Below, piece by piece: positions 9,770 to 53,500 of a stretch of 64,000 bases of DNA (positions are counted from its first letter, which is position 1; each line of letters begins with the position of its first letter). A program made the position numbers and the translations under genes. A model generated the notes under the pieces. It was given only the letters and a program-made list of their open reading frames with translations. It had not been told where the DNA came from and made no database searches. Origin of the DNA: Mugil cephalus (taxonomy: Eukaryota > Chordata > Actinopteri > Mugiliformes > Mugilidae); NCBI RefSeq assembly GCF_022458985.1, contig NC_061772.1, positions 30,862,506 through 30,926,505 on the forward strand. Reading direction: 5' to 3'.

Positions 9770-14397
<4,628 letters not shown>

Positions 14398-15026: not shown

Positions 15027-15590
15027 CCACACACACCAACACACACACCAACACACACCAACACACACACCAACACACACACACACACACACACCAACAC
15101 ACACACCAACACACACCAACACACACCAAAACACACACAGAGGTAACTTCGTGATTACAGTTTTACACACACATGCGCGCACAAGCACCTTCCTCACCCA
15201 CACACACACACACACACACGTACGCATGCTAACACAAACTCACAAGTAGCTTTATGTTATTACAGTTACAAATACACACAGGAAGAGTAGTAGGATACAC
15301 ACTCATGCGCGTGAAAGCGCACATTAATCTCTCACACACAGGCTAACTGTGCTAACTGTAAGCTAACTGTGCTAAATGTAGGGTAACTGTGCTAACTTAC
15401 AACAACACACACCAACACACACTACACAGGTAACTTTGTGATTACAGTTACACACACACACACAGATACACACGCGTAAGTGTGCTACACAAAAACACAC
15501 ACGTAGCTTTATGCTATTACAGTTACAGATACACACACACATAGAGAACATACACACACAAACACACATATGCGCGCACATTACTTTGTC
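15027..15590. repeat. CA/ACACCA-rich simple sequence
   Basis: Several CA and CACACCAA arrays separated by short unique pieces. A block near 15135-15270 (TTACAGTT next to CA repeats) recurs near 15425-15530, suggesting a local duplication. Confidence 0.85.
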
Positions 15591-15597
15591 ACACACA

Positions 15598-15833
15598 GGC
15601 TAACTGTGCTAACCGTAAGCTAACCCTGCTAACCGTTTGCTAACTGTGCTAAATGTGGGTTAATTGTGTGACATGTGGGTTGACTGAACTAAATGTAGGC
15701 TAACTGTGCTAATCGTAAGCTAACTGTGCTAAATGTGAGTTAAGTGTGCTAACTGCAGGTTAAATGTGCTCACTGTAAGCTAACTGTGCTAACCATAAGC
15801 TAATTATGCTAAATGTAGGTAGTGTGCTAACTC
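15598..15833. repeat. 11/22-bp minisatellite (GCTAACTGTGCTAA type)
   Basis: Diverged units alternate GCTAACTGT with GCTAAATGTA. The same unit appears singly at 15340-15395. Confidence 0.9.
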
Positions 15834-16893: not shown

Positions 16894-25902
<9,009 letters not shown>

Positions 25903-30905: not shown

Positions 30906-32344
30906 CTTTAGTGTTTACTGCGTTTTCATTAGAGCAAAAAATACTATATATATATATATAATTATTAAACCGTCTGTGTTTCTTGTCCATTACAGCAGAA
31001 AATACCAAAACCAAAAGTAAACATGAAGAGTTGTGGTTCAGAGTGCGTTGCAGCCGTCCAGTCTCAGAGAAACCATCTCCCACTCTGTTATGAATCATCA
31101 GCTCCTTCCATCTCTTCTTAACTAAATCATTTCCTCTCAGCCTCTAACGTCTCCATCATGTCCAGCCTTTTGTTCTAACGTAGGGTTCCTCTCAGACCTT
31201 CTCCTGCTCACGTCCAGCAGTGGGAGCTGAGCTTCAGCTGCCTTTGTTAACAGTTGGCATGGCTTCAGTCTGGAGGGTTGTTGATGTGTGTGAGGCGTTG
31301 TTTTAAACCCTTTTAGGCTCTTAAAGCTGCAGAGAAACGCTTCCAGTCTGAAACAAGTTGCATTAATGTCTTCGAATGTCCCGTTAGACCTGGTTAAAAG
31401 TCCAAAATCCAGAGTTTGGCTTCACTGCTGCCTACGTGGCCAAGCTCCATCCTCCACAACCATCATCGCTTCAACCGTTCTGACCACGTCTCAACATCGT
31501 CCTCAGCGTTTTTTTCTTTAAGTCTTATGGTGAAGAGCAGAATCAGATCAATATGATCCCATGAAGCAGCACTTCACATGAAATCAATCAAGTTATTACC
31601 TCCTGTCATAATGTTAATACAGTTTCATAAATAATACAAGTTAAATGTGTTCATTTGACTTTAAAGCAGCCATGAAGCTTTGCTCCTTCTTTATTCCTGT
31701 TTGTATTAGAGGACGTTCTGTTACTGTTGTTGTTGCTGTTGTTGTTGTTGTTGTTGTTGTGTGGTATTGAGTCTGAATAGACATTTAAATCAAACAGCTA
31801 CAGAATTATTCATATTTAGCCACTTTATCTCTTTTATGGATACACGCTGTGGAAATAAATAGACATAACAGGTTCTTTTATTCATATTTACTAAAAGAAC
31901 GTTGAGGCTCTAGTTCTCTTGTCTGTGATTGTGAACATAAACTACAGAATAAATAAATGTTTGAACCCTTCGCAATTATCTGCATTTCATCCTAAAATGA
32001 CTTAAAATGTTCTGAAAGTAGACGAAGAGAACCCACACACACATGGAACACAAATAATAGACCTGTAGATGTGTTCATTCAGGAAAACGAGTACGAATGA
32101 AGCTACAGAATCTTCCACATGCTTCAGTTCTGCTGTTTAACCAGTATCATCAGACGTGACCATGGTGCTTATTATAGAACCAGTGAAGATCAGGACATTG
32201 TCCCCATGTTAACTAACAGACCTCTGTGTGGTGGACAGGTACCTCCCTTATCGACCTTCTCGTCTGCGTGGATCGGACCAGGATTTCCCTGGTTAACATC
32301 TGGAGCCGATGTTTTCAGGACTGATGGCTCCAGAGTGATGTGCC

Positions 32345-34468
32345 ATGGCTTTAATGATCCCCCCAGTGAAACTCAAATGGCTGGAGCACCTGAACAGCTC
32401 ATGGATCACGGAGGACAGCGAGTCCATCGCCACCAGGGAGGGGGTGTCGGTGCTGTACTCCAAGCTGCTGGCCAACAAGGAGGCGGTGCTGCTTCCCCAG
32501 CAGGTCCTGTGTCTAAAGGGCCCCCAGCTCCCAGACTTTGAGCGCGAGTCGCTGTCCAGCGATGAGCAGGAGCACTACCTGGACGCTCTGCTCAGCAGCC
32601 AGCTGGCTCTGGCCAAGATGGTTTGCTCCGACTCCCCGTTTGCCGCCGCGCTGCGGAAACGGGTCCTGGTGCTGCAGCGCATCTTCTACGCCCTCTCCAA
32701 CAAGTACCACGACAAGGGCAAGGTGAAGCAGCAGCAGCACTCCCCAGAGAACAACTCGGGCCTGGCCGACCTGCACTCGGTCAGCGAGCGGCCGCGGTCC
32801 AGCACCGACGCCCTCATCGAGATGGGCGTCCGCACGGGCCTCAGCCTCCTCTTCGCTCTGCTGCGCCAGAGCTGGTTGATGCCCCCTCCGCCCGGCCCCG
32901 GAGGAGGAGCCGGACCCGGGGGCGGCGGCGGCGGCGGCGGCGGCATCAACCTGTGCAACGACGTCATCCACACGGCCATCGACGTGGTCAGCTCCCTGCC
33001 CCCGCTCTCCCTGGCCAACGAGAGCAAGATCCCCCCGATGGGGCTGGACTGCCTGGCCCAGGTCACCACCTTCCTGAAGGGCGTCACCATGCCCAACTCC
33101 GGGGCCGACATCTTAGGCCGGCGCCTGGCGTCGGAGCTGCTGCTGGGGCTGGCGTCCCAGAGGGGCTCCCTGCGCTACCTGCTGGAGTGGATCGAGATGG
33201 CGCTGGCTGCCTCGGCCCTGGTCAGCACCATGGACCAGAACCAGGAGGGTCTGATCGGATACGACTGCTTCATGAACATCCTGATGCAGATGAGACGCTC
33301 TCTGGTGAGTCACGAACCCAGACCCTCAGGGAGCCTCAGATACAGCCTCAAGTAGAACCTCAAGTAGAACTTCTAGTAGAACTTCTAGTAGAACCTCAAG
33401 TAGAACCTCAAGTAGAACCTCAGGTAGAACCTCAGATAGAACTTCTAGTAGAACCTCAGGTAGAACCTCAAATACAGCCTCTAGTAGAGCCTCAAGTAGA
33501 ACCCCAAGCAGAACTTCTAGTAGAACCTCAAATAGAGCCTCAGATACAGCCTCAAGTAGAACTTCTAGTAGAACCTCTAGTAGAGCCTTTAGTAGAACCT
33601 CAAATACAGCCTCTAGTAGAGCCTCAAGTAGAACTTCTAGTAGAACCTTTAGTAGAACCTCAGGTAGAGCCTCTAGTAGAGCCTCTAGTAGAACCTCAGG
33701 TAGAGCCTCAAGTAGAACCTCTAGTAGAACCTCAGGTAGAGCCTCTAGTAGAACCTCTAATAGAATCTCTAGTAGATTCTTTAATAGAACCTCTAGTAGA
33801 ACCTCTAGTAGAACCTCAGGTAGAACCTCAAATAGACCCTCAGGTACAGCCTCAAGTAGAACCTCGAGTAGAACCTCAGGTAGAACTTCTAGTAGAACCT
33901 CAAGTAGAACTTCTAGTAGAACCTCAAGTAGAACCTCAGGTAGAGCCTCAAATAGAGCCTCAGGTAGAACGTCTAGTAGAACCTCAAGTAGAACCTCAGG
34001 TAGAACTTCTAGTAGAACCTCTAGTAGAACCTCAGGTAGAGCCTCAGGTAGAGCCTCAAGTAGAACCTTTAGTAGAACCTCAGGTAGAGCCTCAAATAGA
34101 GCCTCAGGTAGAGCCTCTAGTAGAACCTCAGGTAGAACCTCTAGTAGATCCTTTAATAGAACCTCTAGTAGAACCTCTAGTAGAACCTCTCCATGCCGTG
34201 TGGACTCTTGATGATTTCCTTCATGTCTCTGTAACCTTAACGTTCTGGTTCCAGTCAGATTAAACTTGTGAAGCTAACGATGCTGTGGAGTTAATTGAAG
34301 TGAATTAGAGTTAATTAGAGTTAATTAGAGTTAATTCCAGTTAATTGAAGTGTGTGGCTGTGTGCGTCTCAGGGTTCCTCAGCCGACCGGAGCCAGTGGC
34401 GGGAACCGACCCGGACGTCTGAGGGTCTGTGTTCTCTGTATGAAGCAGCTCTGTGCCTGTTTGAAGAA
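32345..34468 (+). CDS. herc1: herc1 coding exons 1-2: N-terminal region
   Basis: Exons 32345-33304 and 34373-34468 (residues 1-352). Exon 1 is unusually long (960 nt coding) and begins [21 protein letters not shown] Gly-rich insertion (nine consecutive Gly before INLCND, coded by GGC repeats near 32928-32944) sits where mammals have a few residues. Exon 2 codes [15 protein letters not shown] and CLFEE. Intron 1 holds an 850-bp, 12-bp-unit minisatellite that reads as [11 protein letters not shown] in one frame but is not coding. Confidence 0.96.
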
Positions 34469-35188
34469 GTAAGAGCATCGTTCAACATTTAATAAAAACC
34501 CTTTAATGTTAGAGTGGCACTAACGCCTCCTCTCCTCCTCTCCCTCCTCCCCCTCCTCCCCCTCCTCCCCCTCCTCCTCCTCCTCCTCCTCCTCCTCCTC
34601 CTCCTCCTCCTCCTCCTCCTCCCCCAGGTGTGTCGCATGGCCTCAGACTACTCTCGTACCTGCGTGAGTCCCGACAGCATCCAGACCGGCGAGGCCCCCG
34701 TGGTGTCAGAGACCTGTGAGGTCTATGTGTGGGGCAGCAACAGCAGCCATCAGCTGGTGGAGGGAACCCAGGAGAAGATCCTGCAGCCCAAGATGGCCGC
34801 CAGCTTCGCCGACGCTCAGACGGTAAGAAAACACCTGCACAGCAGACCTGGTCCTCCGGTCTGTCCTCAGGAAACAACCTGGTCCTGTTTCCTAAAGAAA
34901 GAGTTGCTCCTAGTGGTTGAATTCTAAGAAACTTCTTAGAACCGTCATGTTTTCTAAGAATTCAGAGTAGATCCTGGTAAAGATGAAAGGTCCTAAAGAA
35001 TCTTAGCTCCTCCTCCTTCTTCTGTTCTATTTCCAGTAGCATTGATGCTCATCTTCATCAACAATGATGTTCTAATATATATAATATACCATTGGTCAGT
35101 ATCTAATCCTGTCTCCTCCTGTGTCCTCCTGTCTCCTGTCTCCTGTGTCCTCCTGTCTCATCCTGTCTCCTGTGTCCTCCTGTCTCCT

Positions 35189-35225
<37 letters not shown>

Positions 35226-38200
35226 CCCCCGTGTCCCCCTGTCTCCTCCTCAGATCGAGGCGGGCCAGTACTGTACCTTTGTGATCTCGTCTGACGGTCC
35301 CGTCAGGCCTGTGGAAGGCACTATGGCGTCCCGTCCTGGGCGACTCCAACACCAGTCGCTCCCTGAAGAGCTCCTGACCGTCACCGGTCCTGAAGAAGGT
35401 GTCCTCCGTCCAACGGTCTCGACGACAACCTGCCTTCACCATCCAGGAGGTCTCAGCTGGGGTCGGACTCGCAGCTGGCCACGCAAGCTCCTACACAGAA
35501 GTACCCCAGTCTCATCCGTCCCTCAGTGTACCCCCCCCTCAGACCTCTACCAGTACCCCCACGCCTCCCCGTCCTCCTGTCTCCTGTCTCCTGTCTCCTG
35601 TCCCCCTGTCTCCCCCTGTCTCCTCCTCAGATCGAGGCGGGCCAGTACTGTACCTTTGTGATCTCGTCTGATGGGTCAGTGAGGGCCTGTGGGAAGGGCA
35701 GCTATGGGCGTCTGGGTCTGGGCGACTCCAACAACCAGTCGACCCTGAAGAAGCTGACGCTGGAGCCGCACCGGGCCGTGAAGAAGGTGTCCTCGTCCAA
35801 GGGCTCGGACGGACACACGCTGGCCTTCACCACCGAGGGGGAGGTCTTCAGCTGGGGGGACGGGGACTACGGCAAGCTGGGCCACGGCAACAGCTCCACA
35901 CAGAAGTACCCCAAGCTCATCCAGGGGCCCCTGCAGGGCAAGGTAGGACCCCCCCACACAGACCCTCTAACAGACCCCCCCAACAGACCCCCCAACAGAC
36001 CCCCCAACAGCCCGGGTCTTAGTGTGTGTGTGTTACAGTGTGTGTTATAGTGTTACAGTGTGTGTTATAATGTTACAGTGTGTGTTACAGTGTGTGTTAC
36101 AGTGTTACAGTGTGTGTTACAGTGTGTGTTACAGTGTGTGTTACAGTGTGTGTTACAGTGTGTGTGTGTTATAGTGTTACAGTGTGTGTTACAGTGTAAC
36201 TGTGTTACAGTGTGTGTTATAGTGTGTGTGTTACAGTGTGTGTGTTACAGTGTTACAGTGTGTGTTACAGTGTGTGTGTTATAATGTTACAGTGTGTGTT
36301 ATAATGTTACAGTGTGTGTTACAGTGTGTGTTACAGTGTTACAGTGTGTGTTATAATGTTACAGTGTGTGTTATAATGTTACAGTGTGTGTTACAGTGTG
36401 TGTTACAGTGTTATAGTCTGTGTTATAGTGTGTGTTATAGTGTGTGTGTTACAGTGTGTGTGTTACAGTGTGTGTGTTATAGTGTGTGTGTTATAGTGTT
36501 ACAGTGTGTGTTACAGTGTGTGTTATAGTGTGTGTGTTACAGTGTGTGTGTTATAGTGTTACAGTGTGTTACAGTGTGTGCGTTACAGTGTAACAGTGTT
36601 ACAGTGTGCGTTACAGTGTGCGTTACAGTGTGCGTTACAGTGTGTGTTACAGTGTGTGTGTTACAGTGTGTGTTACAGTGTGTGTTACAGTGTGTGTGTG
36701 TGTTACAGTGTGTGTGTTGTAGTGTTACAGTGTGTGTTATAATGTGTGTGTTATAGTGTTACAGTGTGTGTTATAGTGTTACAGTGTGTGTGTTACAGTG
36801 TGTGTGTTACAGTGTGTGTTACAGTGTGTGTTACAGTGTGTGTGTTACAGTGTTACAGTGTGTGTTATAGTGTTACAGTGTGTGTGTTACAGTGTGTGTT
36901 ACAGTGTGTGTTATAGTGTTACAGTGTGCGTTATAGTGTTACAGTGTGTGTGTGTTACAGTGTGTGTGTTACAGTGTTACAGTGTGTGTTACAGTGTGTG
37001 TTATAGTGTTACAGTGTGTGTTATAGTGTTACAGTGTGTGTGTTATAGTGTTACAGTGTGTGTTATAGTGTTACAGTGTGTGTTACAGTGTGTGTTATAA
37101 TGTGCTGTTGTGTGTCCAGGTGCTGGTGTGCGTCTCTGCTGGGTACAGACACAGCGCTGCCGTCAGTGAGGACGGAGAACTCTACTCCTGGGGGGAGGGA
37201 GACTTCGGACGTCTGGGTGAGACTCCTCCTCCTGCTGACTCCTCCTCCTTCCTCCTCCTCATCCTGACTCCTCTTTCCTTTCCCCTGCTCCTCCTGCTCT
37301 TTACCTTCCCCTCCTCCTCCTCCTGTTTACCACCTCCTCCTTCCTCCTCCTGTTTACCACCTCCTCCTTCCTCCTCCTCATCCTGACTCCTCTTCTCCCC
37401 CCTCCTCCTCTTTACCTTCCCCTGCTCCTCCTGCTCCTCCTCCTCCTCCTCCTGCTCCTCTTCTCCCCCCTCCTCCTCTTTACCTTTCCCTCCTCCTCCT
37501 GCTCCTCCCCCTCCTCCTGCTCCTCCTGCTCCTCCTGCTCCTCCTTCTCCTCCTGCTCCTCCCCCTCCTCCCCCTCCTCCTCCTCCTCCTCCTCCTCCTG
37601 CTCCTCCTGCTCCTCCTCCTGCTCCTCCTGCTCCTCCTCCTCCTCCTGCTGCTCCTCCTGCTGACTCCTCCTGTGTGTGCTGCAGGTCACGGGGACAGTA
37701 ACAGCAGGAACATTCCCACCCTGGTGAAAGACATCAGTAATGTTGGGGAGGTGTCCTGTGGGAGCTCCCACACCATCGCGCTGTCCAAGGACGGACGCAC
37801 CGTCTGGTCCTTTGGAGGAGGAGACAACGGTCGGTCCCCTCGGTTATTATAATGAGATGTGTTGGTTTTATTATTCTTATTATTATAATATACAGGTAGG
37901 CCCGTAGGTGTTTGGACATGGACACATCTTTGGTTTGGACTCTAATTCCACCACATTAGGTCTGAAATGAAACGACTCAGATGCAGTTGAAGTTCAGACT
38001 TTCAGGTTTAATTCAAGAGGTTGAATAAAAATCTAAACTGTTCACTGTCCATTTACTTTTGGTCCCTTGAAAAAGAGGCGGCTTCATATTAAAGAGCTTT
38101 AAACCTAAACCTTCCTCTGGTTTGGATGTGAATCAGATTCCAGAGAGTCTGACCTGTGAGACATGATTATTATATTATAAAACCTGATTATGTTTTAGAG

Positions 38201-41200: not shown

Positions 41201-43647
41201 AGATCAGTGGCAGGAACCAGAAACATTTGAGTTCTTTTTTGTTAAAGTCTAAAGACAGCGTGTTTTTGTTTTTTTCGTCCCGTCAGGCCGTGATTGAGAC
41301 TCTGTCCGTGGGGGCGACCATGTTGCTTCCTCCTCTGAGGGAGAGGATGGAGCTCCTTCACTCCTTGTTGCCTCAGGGTCCAGACCGATGGGAGAGTCTC
41401 TCCAAAGGACAGGTACTGATTTATCCCGGGTTTGACTCTTAACCTTCAGGAGACACCGTCACGTCTGTTCAGGTGCAGCTCGGTTCTTTGGTTCCTTCTC
41501 TGACCAGAATCCATCGTTTAATTCAGCACTAAGACGTCACTGTTAATAACTTTATGAAAGTCTGCAGGACGTCAACGTGATTAAGATCAGAGCAGAAGCT
41601 CAGTGTCTCCGGTCGCCTCCATCTTCGCACCTAATTGGTTCAAAAAGATTCTATCTGGATGAAAGTCTGGTTGAACAGGACGTCTGTGTCCGGGTCTTTA
41701 TTCAGAGGACAGACATGGACGAGTTTACAGGAGGTTTTACAGACAGGACAGGATTTAAACAAACCGTCCTGGTTCCTGGTTCTGAAGCTAACAAACTGTT
41801 TCTCCTGGTTCTGTCCAGCCAATCAGAGCGACTCAACGTTATATTTATTTTAGTGCTGTCAAACGCTTCAACTTCTCAGTCGGATGAATAACTTTCCGTC
41901 CCGGTCGCTGTGTGTGTTGCAGAGGATGCAGCTGGACATCATCCTGACCAGCCTGCAGGACCACACCCACGTGGCGTCTCTGCTGGGTTACAGTTCTCCC
42001 GCCGACGGCCCGGACGTCCTCTCCTCGGGACCGGCCTTCACCGCCTCCCCCGACGGAGCCTACGGCACCACGGCCGGACACCCCGACACCCACCTGGCCG
42101 AGATCCTGATGAAGACGCTGCTCAGGAACCTGGGCTTCTACACCGTGAGTACAGTCAGAGTCTCATCACACTAGTCAGGGAGGACGTCATCAGGAAGTCC
42201 AGACTGATCCAAGGGTCACATCCAGTCCTTCATCTCCACCTCCTGCTGCTCCTCTGAGTGGAACACACTCCTGAACACTGCTGATGCTTTTTCCTCGCAA
42301 CTAAATCACAAATTCATGCTGGACCTGATAAACTCTATAGTAGGAGAATATTTGGGTGGGATTACAACCCCCCCTCTGTCCAGTTCATTAGGTACACACA
42401 GTTCTTCTTCTGGTTCTTCTTCTTCTGGTTCTTCTTCAACTGGATGTCCATTTTTGAGGAAGTAGTAGCCAAATCCACCTGACTACTATGTCAGAATATT
42501 AGGAACACATGTCAGTTCAGTGGTTCTTCAGAATAAATCCCGGTAGAATAAAAAACATCTCTATGAGTTATGAGAAACTAAAACTGAACACCAGAACCTT
42601 CATGTAGACTAGATCTAGAGAGGATTGGTTCCCCTGGTTCCCCTGGTTCCCCTGGTTCCACTGGTTCCACTGGTTCCCCTGGTTCCCCTGCTGTGTGTAA
42701 TCCTCTGTGTGCTGGTGTGGTCCAGGATCAGGCGTTCGGGGAGCTGGAGAAGAACAGCGATAAGCTGCAGCAGGGCACCTCCTCCTCGGACAGCAGCCAA
42801 CCAGCTCACCTCCACCAGCTCCTCTGCTCCCTGCAGAAGCAGCTGTTAGCGTACTGCCACATCAACTCCGTCACGGAGGTAAGAACGAACACACAACCCG
42901 TCTCAGTTCAGACCCGGTGTCGACGCGTCTCCGTGGTTTTTATCCTCGCCTCCTCCTCAGCAGTGGCTCTGATCTACCTACTGCTGGATCAGACCTGTGA
43001 GCAGCTCTGTGCTCTTTATGTTGAATAAATTATTTAAACTGATCTCACCACCTCCAAATCCCCCCCCCAGTACTCTGACTGATACCATAGACTGTGAACA
43101 GAGATGGAGGGTGGAGCAGCTCCTCTACAGTGAAGCCAAAGCTAGTAGAGCTCCCCCTGGTGTCTGGTCATAAACTCCACCTCCTCCATATCAGTGGGTG
43201 GGACATGTGTCAACATTTTTATTTTTCAAGGATGGTTTCAGTCATTTTAGGTCGTTAATATAATGTTGATGAACGTTCAAGTCTCAGTTTTGGGGGGTTA
43301 GGTTTAGTTTCATTTTCATTTTGTTATTTGACGCTTTGGAAACACGACGTGACATAATGATGGCCACCAGTTGCCATGCCAACCGCTCCACAAAGAGGTC
43401 CAGGGAAAGTTGTAAAAGCTATTTTTGTGTGTATAATCTAACATTTTCCTTGTATCTGGTGGAGGAAGAGCCGAGTGTAGGATTAATTAAACGGAAACGC
43501 CAGTGAGTCTGGAGGAAGTGTGGGCGGGGCATCAGTACTGTGGCTCCGCCCTCAGACCGTACTGATCAGACTCTGGCTCCGAACTCACCACCTGTAATAC
43601 TATCAATGACCAATGACCAATGATGATGAAGCAGTGAATACTAGATG

Positions 43648-43695
<48 letters not shown>

Positions 43696-43814
43696 CGATG
43701 AAGATGATGATGATGATGATGATGATGAAGCAGTGAATACCAGATGAGTGGATGATGATGTGATGTGATGTGATGTGATGATGATGATGATGATGATTGT
43801 GATGTGATGTGATG

Positions 43815-43859
<45 letters not shown>

Positions 43860-44132
43860 CGATGACGATGACGATGAAGATGACGATGACGATGATGATG
43901 ATGATGATGACGATGAAGATGATGATGATGATGATGAAGCAGTGAATACCAGATGAGTGGATGATGATGTGATGTGATGTGATGTGATGTGATGTGATGT
44001 GATGTGATGTGATGATGATGATGATGATGATGATGACGATGAAGATGACAATGACGATGACGATGATGATGATGATGATGATGATGATTGTGATGTGATG
44101 TGATGTGATGTGACGATGATGACGATGATGAC

Positions 44133-44175
<43 letters not shown>

Positions 44176-44496
44176 GTGATGTGATGTGATGTGATGTGAT
44201 GTGATGTGATGTGATGATGATGACGATGATGACGATGATGATGATGATGATGGTGATGGTGATGTGATGTGATGTGATGTGATGCGATGTGATGATGATG
44301 GTGATGTGATGATGATGTGATGATGATGATGATGTGATGTGATGTGATGTGATGTGATGTGATGTGATGTGATGATGATGATGTGATGTGATGTGATGTG
44401 ATGTGATGTGATGTGATGTGATGTGATGATGACGACGATTGTGATGTGATGTGATGTGATGTGATGTGATGTGATGTGATGTGATGTGATGTGATG

Positions 44497-44546
<50 letters not shown>

Positions 44547-47500
44547 TGATGTGATGTGATGATGAAGTCTCCATGTTTGTCTGCAGAACTCGAGCAGTGT
44601 GGCTCTGCTGCACAAACACCTCCAGCTCCTCCTGCCTCACGCCACCGACATCTTCTCCCGCTCGGCTGCTCTGATCAAAGAAAGTTCCTGGAACGGCAGC
44701 ATCAGAGAGAAGCTACAAGGTGACGGGGTCAGATGAAAGGTTTTAGTTCAGACCAGAGCCTCAGAAAGACGATGGGTGGAAGGTGTTTATCTCCACTCTG
44801 CTGTTAGTCGGGAGGGAAGGAAGGAAAGAAATAACCAAAGGAAAGGATGTAGAAAGGAATGAAAGGATAGAGATGTGATCTCTTCCCTGTGTTTCCTGTC
44901 CAGATGTGATCTACGTGTCGGCTGCCGGCAGCATGCTCTGTCAGATCATCAACTCTCTGCTGCTGCTCCCGGTGTCGGTGGCCCGGCCTCTGCTGAGCCA
45001 CCTCCTGGACCTGCTGCCCCCCCTGGACCTGCTCAACAGGCTGCTCCCGGCCGCCTCCCCCCTGGAGGACCAGGAGCTGCAGTGGCCCCTGCACGGTGAG
45101 GACAATGTCCCGCATCACAAACCTGCTCAGGGACGTCCTGTCTGTGACGTCTCTGACTGGACCCACTGTCCTGTTCTACGTCTCATCATGTCTCTGTGTC
45201 CCCTGCATAGACACTGAGCTAATTAGCATTGTAGCTATGAGCTGTCGGCCATTTGGTGCCTGAACAGATGTTCAGTCATTTCCCTGTAGCAGGAATCCTC
45301 ACAGCCCCACACGTCTTCTGTGTGTCTCTGGTTGTGTGTCCCTGGTTGTGTGTGTGTCCCTGGTTGTGTGTCTCTGGTTGTGTGTGTGTCCCTGGTTGTG
45401 TCCCTGGTTGTGTCCCTGGTTGTGTGTGTCTCTGGTTGTGTGTGTCTCTGGTTGTGTGTGTCTCTGGTTGTGTCTGTCTCTGGTTGTGTGTCTCTGGTTG
45501 TGTGTGTCTGTGTGTGTCTCTCTTTGTGTGTCCCTGGTTGTGTGTCTCCCTGGTTGTGTGTCTCCCTGGTTGTGTGTGTCTCTGGTTGTGTGTCCCTGGT
45601 TGTGTGTGTCTCTGGTTGTGTGTCCCTGGTTGTGTCTCCCTGGTTGTGTGTGTCTCTGGTTGTGTGTCCCTGGTTGTGTGTCTCTGATTGTGTGTCGTGT
45701 CTAGTATTTGACCAGATCTTGTCTGACTCTCCAGGGACCTCGGACTTTGCTGAGCCGCCCTCGGGGACGTCCCTGCCCCCCCCGGCTGTGTCCTGGGTGT
45801 GGCTGGTGGACCTGGAGAGGACGGTGGCCCTGCTGGTGGGCCGCTGCCTCGGTGGGATGCTGCAGGGAGCCCCCACCTCTCTGGAGGAGCAGGACACCGC
45901 CTACTGGCTGAAGACGCCCCTGTTCAGCAACGGCCTGGAGATGGACATCCCTCAGCTCGGTATGGGGGGGGGCGGAGCCTCCGGGTTCTGTGTTGTGGTC
46001 GTTTCCTGTGATGACGGGATTGTTGTGTGGTGTCTTTTCAGACGTCTGCATCAGCTCGTTACTGGAGGCGGCTCTGTCTGGTAACGAGGAGCAGAAGCCC
46101 TTCGACTGCACTCTGCGTCCTGACCTCAGCGTCCTGGTGGACTTGGCCCTGGGTTCCTCTAAAGAACCTGCCAACAGCCTGTGGATCAACATGCTGGACT
46201 ACGCCATGAGCAAAGGTCTGTCTGCAGACCACACCGGCCATGATAATGTGAAGCAGCAGGACCCCCCAGGTCAGACCGGTCCTGTTGAGTTGTTCTGACT
46301 GTGTGTTGTGTTGCAGACTGGGACAACGCGTCTCTCAGTAACGAGTCCCTGTTGGACACGGTGTCCAGGTTTGTGTTGGCGGCGTTGCTGAAGCACACGG
46401 GGCTGCTGGGCCAAGCCTGTGGAGAGGGAAGGTACTGGAGCCTCACAGCTTCTCATTAGAGTCAGGCCCCATGAATCTGGAGCTCTACGTTTAATACTAA
46501 CCCCCCCCCCATACAGGTACCAGCCGTCTAAGACTCTAGCCGAAGTCTATCGCAGCGTCTACAAGGTCAGGAACCGTCTGCTGGCCTGTAAGAACATGGA
46601 CTTCATCCAGACGAGGTCTTCGTCCAGAGAGAGGAGGGTGAGTAGCCTCCAGCCAATCAGAGAGCCTCCTCAGTTACTGCTCAACTCCTATTGGTCCAGA
46701 GCTCGGCCTGGAAGACAAGACAACTTCCCGGAGCCTCTGATCCATCACCACTTCTTTCTTTCTCTGCTTTCTTTTAGTGTTTAGTGTTTTTTTCTTTGTT
46801 TCTCTCGTTGCACTGAATCCAGTCGACTCCAGGAGAAGACGAGGACTTTATCCGTCCACAGGGACGTTTAACATGTTTACTGTAGGAAACCGCTGGATGT
46901 GTTTGGGTTGCAGATCTCAGATAACCAGGACTCGCTGGACATGGACCCCCAGGAGCACTCGTTCACCCGGACCATCGACGAGGAGGCGGAGCTGGAGGAG
47001 AGGGCCGACCGCGAGAGGGAGGAGGGCCACCAGGAGCAGGACGAGGAGGAGGAGGACCGGGAGCATGAAGTCATGACGGCTGGAAGTGAGTAGCTCCGCC
47101 TGGACGCCTGCTTCAAGGCTGCTGCATCAGGTCTGCATGTTTCACCGACCTCACAGAGAATGTGTTTCATTTAGTTAAACCCTGTTTAACCAGGAGCCTC
47201 CTTTATCAGAGACCAGACACACAAAGTCAAAATAAAGACTCATGTTGAGTAGTTTACTACAGATAAACACAACTAGATCAAATCAATTGATTCATCTCAA
47301 TAAAGTATTTGAATCTGTCCACAGAACTGGTGGAAATAAATGTGACCACACAGATAATTAGTTGTGAACATAGTTACACTTTGTTCCTAAATCTGGATCA
47401 TGTCTCCAAGTCTCCAACCACGTGTTCCTGGTTCTGGTCCAGAGGTAGATTCATCAGAGACAGCAGCTCTGGCTGTTGACCTGAGCGTGAATGTTGCTCT

Positions 47501-50500
47501 CCATTAAACCCTGGTTGGATGGATGGTTGGATGGTTGGATGGATGGTTGGATGAGATGTGGATGGTTGGTTGGATGGATGGTTGGTTGGATGGATGGTTG
47601 GATGGTTGGATGGATGGTTGGATGGTTGGATGGATGGATGGTTGGTTGGATGGATGGATGGTTGGTTGGATGGTTGGATGGATGGTTGGATGATTGGATG
47701 GATGGTTGGTTGGATGGTTGGATGGATGGATGGATGGTTGGTTGGATGGTTGGTTGGATGGTTGGATGGTTGGTTGGATGGATGGTTGGTTGGATGGTGG
47801 ATGGTTGGTTGGATGGATGGTTGTTGATGTGGATGGTTGGTTGGATGGTTGGTTTGGTTGGATGTGGTGTGGTTGGATGGGTGTTTGGTTGGTTGGATGG
47901 ATGGTTGGTTTGGATGAGTGGTTGGTTGGAGTTGGTTGGTTGGATGGTTGGATGATTGGATGGATGTTTGGTTGGATGGTTGGATGGTTGGATGGTTGGT
48001 TGGATGGATGGTTGGTTGGATGAGTGGATGGTTGGTTGGATGAGTGGATGGTTGGTTGGATGGTTGGTTGGATGAGTGGATGGTTGGTTGGATGGATGGT
48101 TGGTTGGATGGATGGTTGGATGATTGGATGGATGGTTGGTTGGATGGTTGGATGGTTGGTTGGTTGGATGGATGGTTGGTTGGATGAGTGGATGGTTGGT
48201 TGGATGGATGGTTGGTTGGATGAGTGGATGGTTGGTTGGATGGTTGGATGGTTGGATGGTTGGTTGGTTGGATGGATGGTTGGTTGGATGAGTGGATGGT
48301 TGGTTGGATGGTTGGATGGTTGGATGATTGGATGGATGGTTGGTTGGATGGTTGGATGGATGGTTGGATGGTTGGTTGGATGGATGGTTGGATGGTTGGA
48401 TGGTTGGTTGGATGGTTGGTTGGATGGATGGTTGGATGGATGGTTGGATGAGTGGATGGATGGATGGTTGGTTGCTTTGCTGCATGAATGGTTGGTTGTT
48501 AGGTTGTTTGGTTGTGTTGTTGTGTTGTTGTTTGGTTGTGTTGTTGTTAGGTTGTTTGGTTGTGTTGTTGTTTGGTTGTGTTGTTGTTAGGTTGTTTGGT
48601 TGTGTTGTTGTTTGGTTGTGTTGTTGTTTGGTTGTGTTGTTGTTTGGTTGCGTGGCTGCTGCTCGTCCTCTAACTCTGCATCTTGTGTTTGTCTGTTTTT
48701 ATTTGTGTGCGCCCGTCACACAACAGAAATCTTTCAATGTTTCCTCTCAGCGCGGGAGGTCGCTCGAAGCCGGGACCGAGAACGAGTCACCAGCACCGGG
48801 CTGGGCTCCAGCTCCAGGAGCGGAGGAGGAGGAGGAGGAGGCGGAGGAGGAGGTGGGGGAGGAGGAGAGGAGGACGCCATCTTGTCCCAGGAGGGGAGGA
48901 GAGGTAGCTCTGGTCTCCCTGAAGGACAGGACCTGTACACGGCCGCCTGTAACTCTGTGATCCACCGCTGTGTCCTGCTGCTGCTGGGAGTCAGTCCGGT
49001 TCTAGAGGTCACCAAGCAGAACCAGGAGGAGACCCAGACCCACTCAGCCTCAGGAACCCAGGAGAGTCTCAGCTTCATGACCAGGTCTGCCCTTCCTTCC
49101 TTCCTACCTTCCTTCCTTCCTTCCTGTCTATGAATGTGATGTGATGTTCTCTTTGTGTTCAGGAGTGAGAGTCTCAGCGCTGAAAGCCGGTCGGTCCAGA
49201 ACAGCCCCAGTTACCGGCTGATGAAGTCCCGGAGCGAGTCGGACCTGTCCCAGCCGGAGTCGGACGAGGAGAGCTACACTCTGGTAAATCAGAGCCCTTC
49301 TCTGTCCCTGTGTCTCTGGTTTCCTTCCAGCTGGAGCTAAAACCTGGTGTCTGTTGTTTCAGAGCGGCCGGAGGAACGTGGACCTGGACCTGGCCTTCTC
49401 TCAGAAAAAGAGAGGTAACTATGCAGCTATGGAAGCTGTGGGCTCAGAGCAGAGCAGTGGTTCTCAACTGGTGGGTCCCGACCCAAAAACCGTTCAGAGA
49501 AAAGAAATGATCAGAGTGATTCCACCTCCTCAGCAGTAGGTGGCGGTCAAGGTTAGATCAGACCTGAACCCAGACCAGCTGAGAACCAGTGTGGGGGGGT
49601 GGGAGGACGGGAGGACGGGGACTGTCCCTGGTCGTCCTTCATGTCTCTTCTTGTCTCCCTGTCTCTTTGGATCCGCTGTGGATAGTTTATTTGCTTCTTT
49701 TGGGCCAGTTGAGCCCCAGACACCAGAGGAGCTGCAAGCAAGTAAACGATGGCATGTTTCCTCTCGTCTGTCGCCTCCATCTCCGCCTCCATCCACCCTC
49801 AGATAGATCAGCAGCTTTCAGACGCCTCCACTGGACAAACTCATCCTGCTCTGTTTGTCTGGAGCCTCATGGGAACACTGACTTAACCTGGACCCTCCCT
49901 CCTTCTCCCCTCCTTCCCTCCTTCCTCCTTACCACCCTCCCTCCTCCTCCCCTCCTTCCCTCCTTCCCCCCTTCCCCCCTCCTTCCCCCCTTCCCCCCTT
50001 CCCCCCTCCTTCCCTCCTTCCCCCCTTCTCCCCTCCTTCCCTCCTTCCTCCTTACCACCCTCCCTCCCTCCTTCTCCTCCTTCCCTCCTTCCCTCCCCTC
50101 CTCCTCCCCTCCTCCCACCCCTCCTCCCCTCCTCCCATCCTCCCTCCCTCCCCTCCTTCCCTCCCCTCCTTCCTTCCCGTCCTCCTTCCCTCCTTCTCCC
50201 CTTCTCCCCTCCTTCCCTCCTTCTCCCCTCCTTCTCCTTCCTTCCTTCCCTCCCCTCCTCCTCTCTCCTCCTTCCCTCCTTCCCTCCCGTCCTTGTCCCC
50301 TCCTCCCTCCCTCCTTCCTCCTTCCCTCCCTCCCCTCCTTCCCTCCTTCTTCCCTCCCATCCTCCCCCTCTCTCCTCCTTCCCTCCCCTCCTTCCTTCCC
50401 TTTCCTCCTCCCCTCCTCCCCTCCTCTCCTCCCCTCCCCTCCCTCCCTCCTTCTCCCCTTCTTCCCTCCTTCTCCCCTTCTTCCCTCCTTCCCTCCTTCT

Positions 50501-53500
50501 TCCCTCCTTCTCCCCTCCCTCCTTCCTCCCTCCTCCTCCTCTCCTTCCTCCCTCCCTCCCTCCCTTCCCTCCTTCCCTCCTTCTTCCCTCCCCTCCTCCC
50601 CCTCTCTCCTCCTTCCCTCCTTCTCCCTCCCTCCCTCCCTCCCTCCCCTCCTCCTCCTCTGTCCTCCTTCCCTCCTTCTTCCCTCCTCCTTCCCTCCTTC
50701 TTCCCTCCCCTCCCTCCTCCCTCCCCTCCCCCCCTCCCCTCCTCCCCTCCTTCCACCCTCCCTCCCCTACTTCCCTCCTCTCCTTCCTTCCCTTTCCTCC
50801 TCCCTCCCTCCTTCCCTTTCCTCCTCCCTCCCTCCCTCCTTCCCTTTCCTCCTCCCTCCCTCCCTCCCTCCTTCCTTTTCCCCTCCCTCCCTCCTTACCT
50901 CCTTACCTCCTTACCTCCTTTTCCCCTCCATCCCTCCCTCCCTCCTCCCCCCCCCCCCCTCATTTCTTCTCAGCAGCTCTTGGAATCATTTCCAGATGAA
51001 CTCATCCTGGCTGATAAAAGCTTGTGGCCGCATGTTAGAATCAGCATTTTCCATCTGGTGATGGATCGATATATAATGATATAATGCATCCAGCTCTTCA
51101 GTGCTTTAAACGCTGCTCAGTCCATCATCCATTTTATGCATTGATGCATCTGAAAGTCCTCCTCCTCCTCCTCCTCCTCCTCCTCCTCCTCCTCAGGCCT
51201 CCTCCACAGCTCTCCAGACTCCCTGGCTGAGTCCTGGTTCCGGGCCAAACTGAGCCGCCAGCGAAGTTACGGTTCAGCGCACTCGTACGAGGAGTCGGAC
51301 CTGGACCTGAGCCGCTCTCTGGGGATCCACGCTCTCATCGACAACATGGTCAGCTTCATCAGCGGCGACGTGGGCCTGACGCCGGCCTTCAAGGAGCCAG
51401 AGGAAAGTATGTCCACCAGCCCCCAGGCCACCATCCTGGCTATGGAGCAGCAGCAGAGCAGAGCCGAGGTGAGAGGGCAAATGGTTATTACACATAATAA
51501 ATATAGAGAGGTAGCTTAGCATGTAGCCTAGGTGGCTGGTAGCTTAGCATTGCTATGTAGCATGTAGCCTTGGTGGCTGTTAGCTTAGCATTGCTATGTA
51601 GCATGTAGCCATGTAGTTCCATGTAGGGGTGGGCGATATGACGATATTAAATCGTGAGCGATTACAACGTGAAGACGATCTGTCAAACTGCAGAGATCGT
51701 GGTTGTCTAGGGCACATTCTATAAATTGCATTTCTATGCTGATGCACCGAAGCACCAGACGTATCACGTCGTCAACCTGACCGACCAATCATAGCGAATT
51801 ACGGGCAGTGACGTGCTATTCACGTTATTCATATTCATATTAAAATAATAAAAAAATAAACTTTCTCCAGACAGAAACTGTCTGTGAGCCTGTGAAACGC
51901 CTCCATTTTGGAAACAGCTGCCAAAAGCTGCTGACTGTAGAGCTCAGAGAAATCCACCAGGGGGCAGATGACAGGGATCAAATCATATAGATTTATTCCT
52001 GTTGTCAGTGTCAGACCTGGAGGGTTAAAGCCACGTTTAAACCGTGCGTTGCTGTTTCTGCAGCTGAGGCTGGAAGCCCTCCACCAGATCGTGGTGTTGA
52101 TCTCTGGTATGGAGGAGAAGGGGAGCCAGCCAGGGGGATCAGACCGGTCCAGCGCCGCCTTCCAGTCCTCCTCCCTCCTCACCTCCGTCAGGCTCCAGTT
52201 CCTGGCCGGATGTTTCGGCCTCGGCACCGTGGGAACCGGAGGCCTGAAGAGAGAGAGCGTTCAGCTGCATCACTACCAGGTACCAGGCTGGTTTCATACG
52301 GTGACACAAGCTGGAGGATAAAACCTCTTTAAACGTCTTTAACTCCTTCACAGGACGGAGTGAAAGCAGCTAAGAGGAGCCTGCAGATGGAAATCCAGAC
52401 CGCGGTCCACAAGATCTACCAGCAGCTGTCTGTCACCCTGGAGAGAGCCCTGCAGGCCAACAAGCACCACATAGGTACCAGAGTCACCTGGAAACACCAA
52501 CACTGATCCGGTCTCTAGTCCAGGGGTGGACACCCGTCTGGTCTCTAGTCTGGTCTCTAGTCTGGTCTCTAGTCTGGTCTCTGGTCCAGGGGTGGACACT
52601 GATCTGGTCTCTAGAGTCCAGGGGTGGACACTGGTGACGTCTGGTCATTAGTGATGAGCCTTTATAAAGATTCTGGACCTGGACCTGAGAACTAAACTAA
52701 ACTAGAAACTAATGTGAACTAGAATCAACTCAGGACATGATGGATGTGAATGAAAGCTCTGATCCAGCCCCCCTCCCCCCTTGTGTTTTCCTCTACAGAA
52801 GCTCAGCAGCGCCTCCTGCTGGTGACCGTGTTCGCCCTGAGTGTCCGCTACCAGCCGGTGGACGTGTCCCTGGCCATCTCCAGTGGGCTCCTGAACGTCC
52901 TGTCCCAGCTCTGTGGCACAGAGACCATGCTGGGGCAGCCCCTCCAGCTGCTGCAGAAACCCGGGGTGTCCCAGCTCAGCACGGCCCTGAAGGTGGCGTC
53001 CACACGGCTGCTGCAGATCCTGGCCATCAGCACCGGGTCAGAAAAACCTTTCATTATTATTATTATTAACCTTAAAAATGACAGGAGCAAAGACTTCAGG
53101 GTGTAAAAGATAAATAATAAAATAAAAAAGTGTTGAGCTGAACAGATGGACCAGGTGTAACTGGGCTTTAAGGTGCTGAACCTTGAGATGTAATAATATT
53201 AAACATATTAAGAATGTTCACTGAACGTAAACCTGTCTTTAAAGAGACACTAAATGTAGATTTACAGAAGTTTTAACTCTGAATCCATTTATGTTTCTCT
53301 GTTAAACTGTTACTGCTGACACCTCCACCTGTTCTCCACCTGTTCTCCACCTGTTCTCCACCTGTTCTCCATCTGTTCTCCACCTGTTCTCCACCTGTTC
53401 TCCACCTTTGGCTGAGCTGCGCTCACAAGAAGAACCTGTACGCTCTGAACAAGGTTCTAAGTAAAACTTCAAAATTCAAAAAAAAAAAAGAAACCAAACA

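Follow-up and report, generated by a model that had tools for sequence, protein, structure and literature searches.

An exon of a HERC-type gene is present twice in tandem in the genome assembly of Mugil cephalus, and the pattern of differences in the assembled sequence indicates that the first, damaged copy is very probably an assembly artefact of the type known as false exon gain or homotype false duplication, presumably formed where two contigs meet. The window, that is, the whole stretch of DNA analyzed, comprises 64,000 nucleotides (NC_061772.1, positions 30,862,506 to 30,926,505, assembly GCF_022458985.1), and all coordinates given here refer to it. Positions 35254-35560 repeat 35631-35986 head to tail with an offset of 377 bases, and the repeated segment consists of the 312-nt exon and some 40 bases of its downstream intron (Table 1). 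A second exon copy at 35254 had been proposed in an initial annotation of this DNA and is clearly detected by self-BLAST of the window, in which 35123-35560 pairs with 35501-35979 (75.7% identity, E = 2e-71); self-comparison and pairwise alignment both show one locus placed twice in a row in the assembled sequence. As that annotation also stated, the copy lacks a donor, the GTAGGA of the real exon not being kept. The end of the copy, which had been placed at 35524, has to be moved to about 35560, given that the alignment continues into the downstream intron: 35518-35567 can still be matched to the first bases of the intron downstream of the real exon, with a score of 15.4 (0.2 +/- 3.1 for shuffles), and 40 of the 65 aligned columns in the intron part are identical, with none of 1000 letter shuffles as good and with end points that were chosen after trying 16 combinations. 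Judging from this alignment, the copied unit is a genomic segment rather than the exon as such.

Table 1. Features of the exon copy and the real exon in the window
Feature	Positions	Strand	Description
CTCCTGT array (pyrimidine-rich) and acceptor preceding the copy	35100-35253	+	final 20 bases match exactly those preceding the real exon
Copy, first 41 exon bases	35254-35294	+	identical to 35631-35671
Noisy remainder of the copy: exonic part up to about 35524, then roughly 40 intronic bases	35295-35560	+	purines lost, pyrimidines gained; distal edge uncertain by several bases
Presumed join, followed by a shorter second CTCCTGT stretch plus the real exon's acceptor	35561-35630	+	
Real exon	35631-35942	+	phase-0 exon of 312 nt in a HERC-type gene; encodes RCC1 repeats; acceptor AG, donor GTAGGA

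The differences between the two copies set in abruptly. The identity of the acceptor and the first 41 exon bases, already noted in the initial annotation, also spans the 20 bases upstream of the exon (61 bases in total), and the first differences appear at copy base 35294/35295. Beyond this point, 251 bases of the real exon are aligned with 223 bases of the copy with 205 matches, and the 251 exon bases contain 9 substitutions and 40 indel events (31 deletions that remove 37 bases, and 9 insertions of one base each). The event rate is thus 0.195 per base past 35294 and zero in the preceding 41 exon bases; at this rate, the chance of zero events in 41 bases is 1.4e-4, which shows a step in the error rate. 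The differing columns are spread evenly over the noisy part of the exon (17, 17 and 20 in successive thirds), with the noise continuing across the exon end into the following intron. The 9 substitutions are distributed over codon positions 1, 2 and 3 as 4, 2 and 3, and there are no transitions among them in the alignment used for these counts.

The losses and gains are also strongly unequal among the four bases. The 37 lost bases include 25 G, 7 A, 3 T and 2 C (32 purines vs 5 pyrimidines), which corresponds to 25 of the 89 available G, 7 of 53 A, 3 of 35 T and 2 of 74 C (Fisher p = 9e-6 for G vs C). Inserted letters are exclusively C or T, without a single A or G insertion under four alignment scorings, and substitutions to A or G are absent under two of these scorings, the remaining two each giving a single A>G change; every scoring was averaged over its first 300 co-optimal alignments. 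On the + strand, the copy, as aligned, has lost purines and gained pyrimidines. Such a one-strand bias would hardly be produced over 250 bases by mutation or by a consensus of both strands, and a single read in one orientation could produce it. The bias might conceivably be read in terms of weak G and A signals in one PacBio chemistry; a literature search for such signals yielded nothing on point.

The initial annotation attributed the losses mostly to runs of G and C, and this part of its argument does not hold. Single G residues are lost about as often as those within runs (7 of 28 vs 18 of 61; Fisher p = 0.80), and none of the 35 C residues within runs is lost. When counted per run, one or more bases are missing from 14 of the 21 G runs, compared with 7 of the 28 single G, as would be expected from longer targets, and the corresponding values for A are 5 of 12 runs and 2 of 29 single bases. 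With all bases pooled, 24 of the 37 losses fall in runs, which comprise 49% of the bases, a weak enrichment (p = 0.04). Collapsing of the runs restores little identity, from 0.79 to 0.84, the values in random-error controls (n=200) being 0.81 without collapsing and 0.818 +/- 0.023 with it. We rejected the homopolymer explanation on these observations. The conclusion drawn in the initial annotation, an artefact of uncorrected long-read sequence, is nevertheless supported by the indel excess (40 vs 9), the error step and the strand asymmetry, which fit uncorrected single-read sequence but hardly a duplicate in decay. Judged by their pattern, namely indel excess and purine-loss bias, the differences are of the sequencing-error kind and not haplotype variation.

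For comparison, nine other diverged repeat pairs, hand-picked out of the 72 rows that the self-comparison gave, were aligned identically to the exon copy; several of these are minisatellite or dispersed repeats, and one differs at a single position. Substitutions outnumber indel events in all nine pairs (for example, 37 vs 18 and 65 vs 42, as opposed to 9 vs 40 in the exon copy), under a gap-friendly scoring that inflates the indel counts of the control pairs. The initial annotation had expected more substitutions from a decayed duplicate. Lopsided purine/pyrimidine differences are found in two of the nine pairs: in the pair 21199/21585, the purine and pyrimidine bases present in the second copy alone number 13 to 2, and in the pair 15108/15394, those in the first copy alone number 11 to 24. 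Therefore the base bias is not decisive by itself and persuades mainly in combination with the indel excess and the error step; G/A loss and C/T gain together with an indel excess are not seen in the ordinary divergence of the same window. The latter control pair (15108-15395 and 15394-15652; 37 substitutions and 18 indel events) is itself a diverged tandem. Elsewhere in the window, two 90-base stretches (11826-11915 and 23949-24038) located 12 kb apart show one difference and are perhaps a young dispersed repeat.

The real exon matches the RCC1 family of Pfam (7.2e-17), and the top two of its 32 PDB matches are HERC2 (9e-56) and HERC1 (1.4e-54). Splicing this exon with six neighbors yields an open reading of 397 residues that contains seven RCC1 stretches with a single copy of the exon included. 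Seven blades is the usual count for an RCC1-type propeller. Given that one copy of the exon already yields seven RCC1 stretches, the gene needs just one. With seven repeats and HERC proteins as the nearest solved relatives, the host domain can be assigned to the RCC1-like domains of the HERC1/HERC2 kind; the gene name herc1 is the label of the initial annotation, and the matches described here suggest a HERC-type gene. A search of the spliced RCC1 domain against the PDB at E 1e-100 gave no match, this threshold being too strict to inform. Several long arrays are located in the window. A 12-base minisatellite, CCTCAAGTAGAA, in about 70 copies occupies 33320-34190, just past or at the end of a long open frame (32339-33355), and both of its strands are open for 300 codons or more. 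An array of about 1.1 kb, GTGTTACA/GTGTTATA, at 36026-37109 takes up the greater part of the intron downstream of the real exon, and further long arrays are found at 43644-44565, 47512-48474 and 49893-50961.

Based on these observations, we propose the following scenario for the origin of the copy. Accurate sequence coming from the left would stop just inside the exon, and an unpolished tail about 270 bases long, which probably stems from a single read in the + orientation, would then run through the rest of the exon into the next intron. Accurate sequence would resume upstream of the same exon, within the CTCCTGT array. The exon would appear twice because the noisy raw tail no longer matched well, such that the overlap of the two pieces was left unmerged. 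The CTCCTGT array, which is purine-rich on the opposite strand, may have caused the assembly break. What the sequence itself shows is the duplication, the error step, the indel excess and the base bias; a single read, a contig end and an overlap that was missed are components that we infer, with the step as an indirect indication of a contig boundary.

Several features of the locus do not sit easily with an artefact. There are no Ns at the presumed join or anywhere else in the window, and the duplication is only about 380 bases long, whereas homotype duplications are described as about read length in PMC8081667. Across 35254-35559, no stop interrupts frame 0 of the copy, albeit with a departure from the RCC1 sequence soon past the identical part and without any Pfam family found at E 0.001. 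The lopsided losses seen in two of the nine comparison pairs count here as well. Furthermore, the CTCCTGT array preceding the copy differs slightly from that preceding the real exon; these small differences may be allelic or may reflect two real sites. The latter would be compatible with a recent and genuine tandem duplication of some 377 bases, perhaps on one allele, in which the first copy is covered just by noisy sequence and its true letters may equal those of the real exon. The clean head-to-tail order of the unit and its flanks agrees with such an event, and with an exon of 312 nt in phase 0, a second copy would preserve the frame. If real, a recent duplication of this exon would extend a propeller of seven blades or make alternative exons available. 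However, the seven RCC1 stretches are already complete with a single copy, and the loss of accuracy, confined to one copy and starting 41 bases inside the exon, would require a separate cause, so we consider a recent duplication very improbable.

Decay by mutation of a real tandem duplicate into a pseudo-exon would account for the tandem order and for the loss of the donor and of the exon reading frame in the copy. Natural decay would be expected to leave at least as many substitutions as indels, and the copy shows 9 substitutions, with zero transitions, vs 40 indel events, whereas all nine compared pairs are substitution-rich; moreover, 61 identical bases would have to adjoin a stretch with 0.195 events per base, and G and A would have to be lost with C hardly affected. 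The indel ratio, the error step and the base bias speak so strongly against decay that we rejected it as highly improbable. A different kind of artefact can also be envisaged, in which the consensus was spoiled by reads of the neighboring pyrimidine-rich array stacked on the exon, pulling letters to C and T. The gained letters are indeed all or nearly all C or T, and GTCC occurs 6 times in the copy vs twice in the matching part of the exon. The copy nonetheless tracks the exon base by base, and this scenario appears to be the least probable of all. Thus, an unmerged contig end with unpolished sequence remains our preferred explanation for the exon copy.

If left unmasked, the copy might enter annotations as a pseudo-exon or an additional RCC1 blade, or be taken for a structural variant; it should be masked and not interpreted. 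A check that does not require reads is available for such cases, namely alignment of both copies followed by a test of the strand symmetry of losses and gains and of whether indels outnumber substitutions.

The artefact belongs to a kind already in print. Homotype false duplications, as characterized in the part of PMC8081667 (Nature 2021) relevant here, arise near contig boundaries or from sequencing errors and are often of read length. The present case resembles them in that one locus is placed as a tandem pair with one poor copy, presumably where a contig ends, and differs from them in that the exon copy is much shorter than the read length and that Ns are lacking between the copies. False exon gains (FEG), a term introduced in the relevant text of PMC9516828 (Genome Biol. 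2022), offer a close parallel, an exon being falsely doubled inside one gene, although the copy described here is so damaged that its annotation as a coding exon is probably not to be expected. With respect to the type of error, MinION reads are prone to small deletions, PacBio reads to small insertions, and strand-dependent biases at repeats are reduced in newer data, according to PMC6425644 (Genome Biol. 2019). The copy is similar to such long-read errors, being deletion-rich (as in MinION) and different between strands; unlike the errors reported there, which concern tandem repeats in older MinION data, the loss of G and A in this case affects unique sequence. By this comparison, the copy looks more nanopore-like, and we make no claim as to the platform. 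For the complete human genome, PMC9186530 reports that failing HiFi coverage at GA-rich sequence interrupted the assembly graph and that these breaks were filled from a nanopore assembly. Such GA-rich HiFi breaks, which are not evidence for the M. cephalus genome, are a possible parallel for the CTCCTGT array at which the assembly may have been interrupted here.
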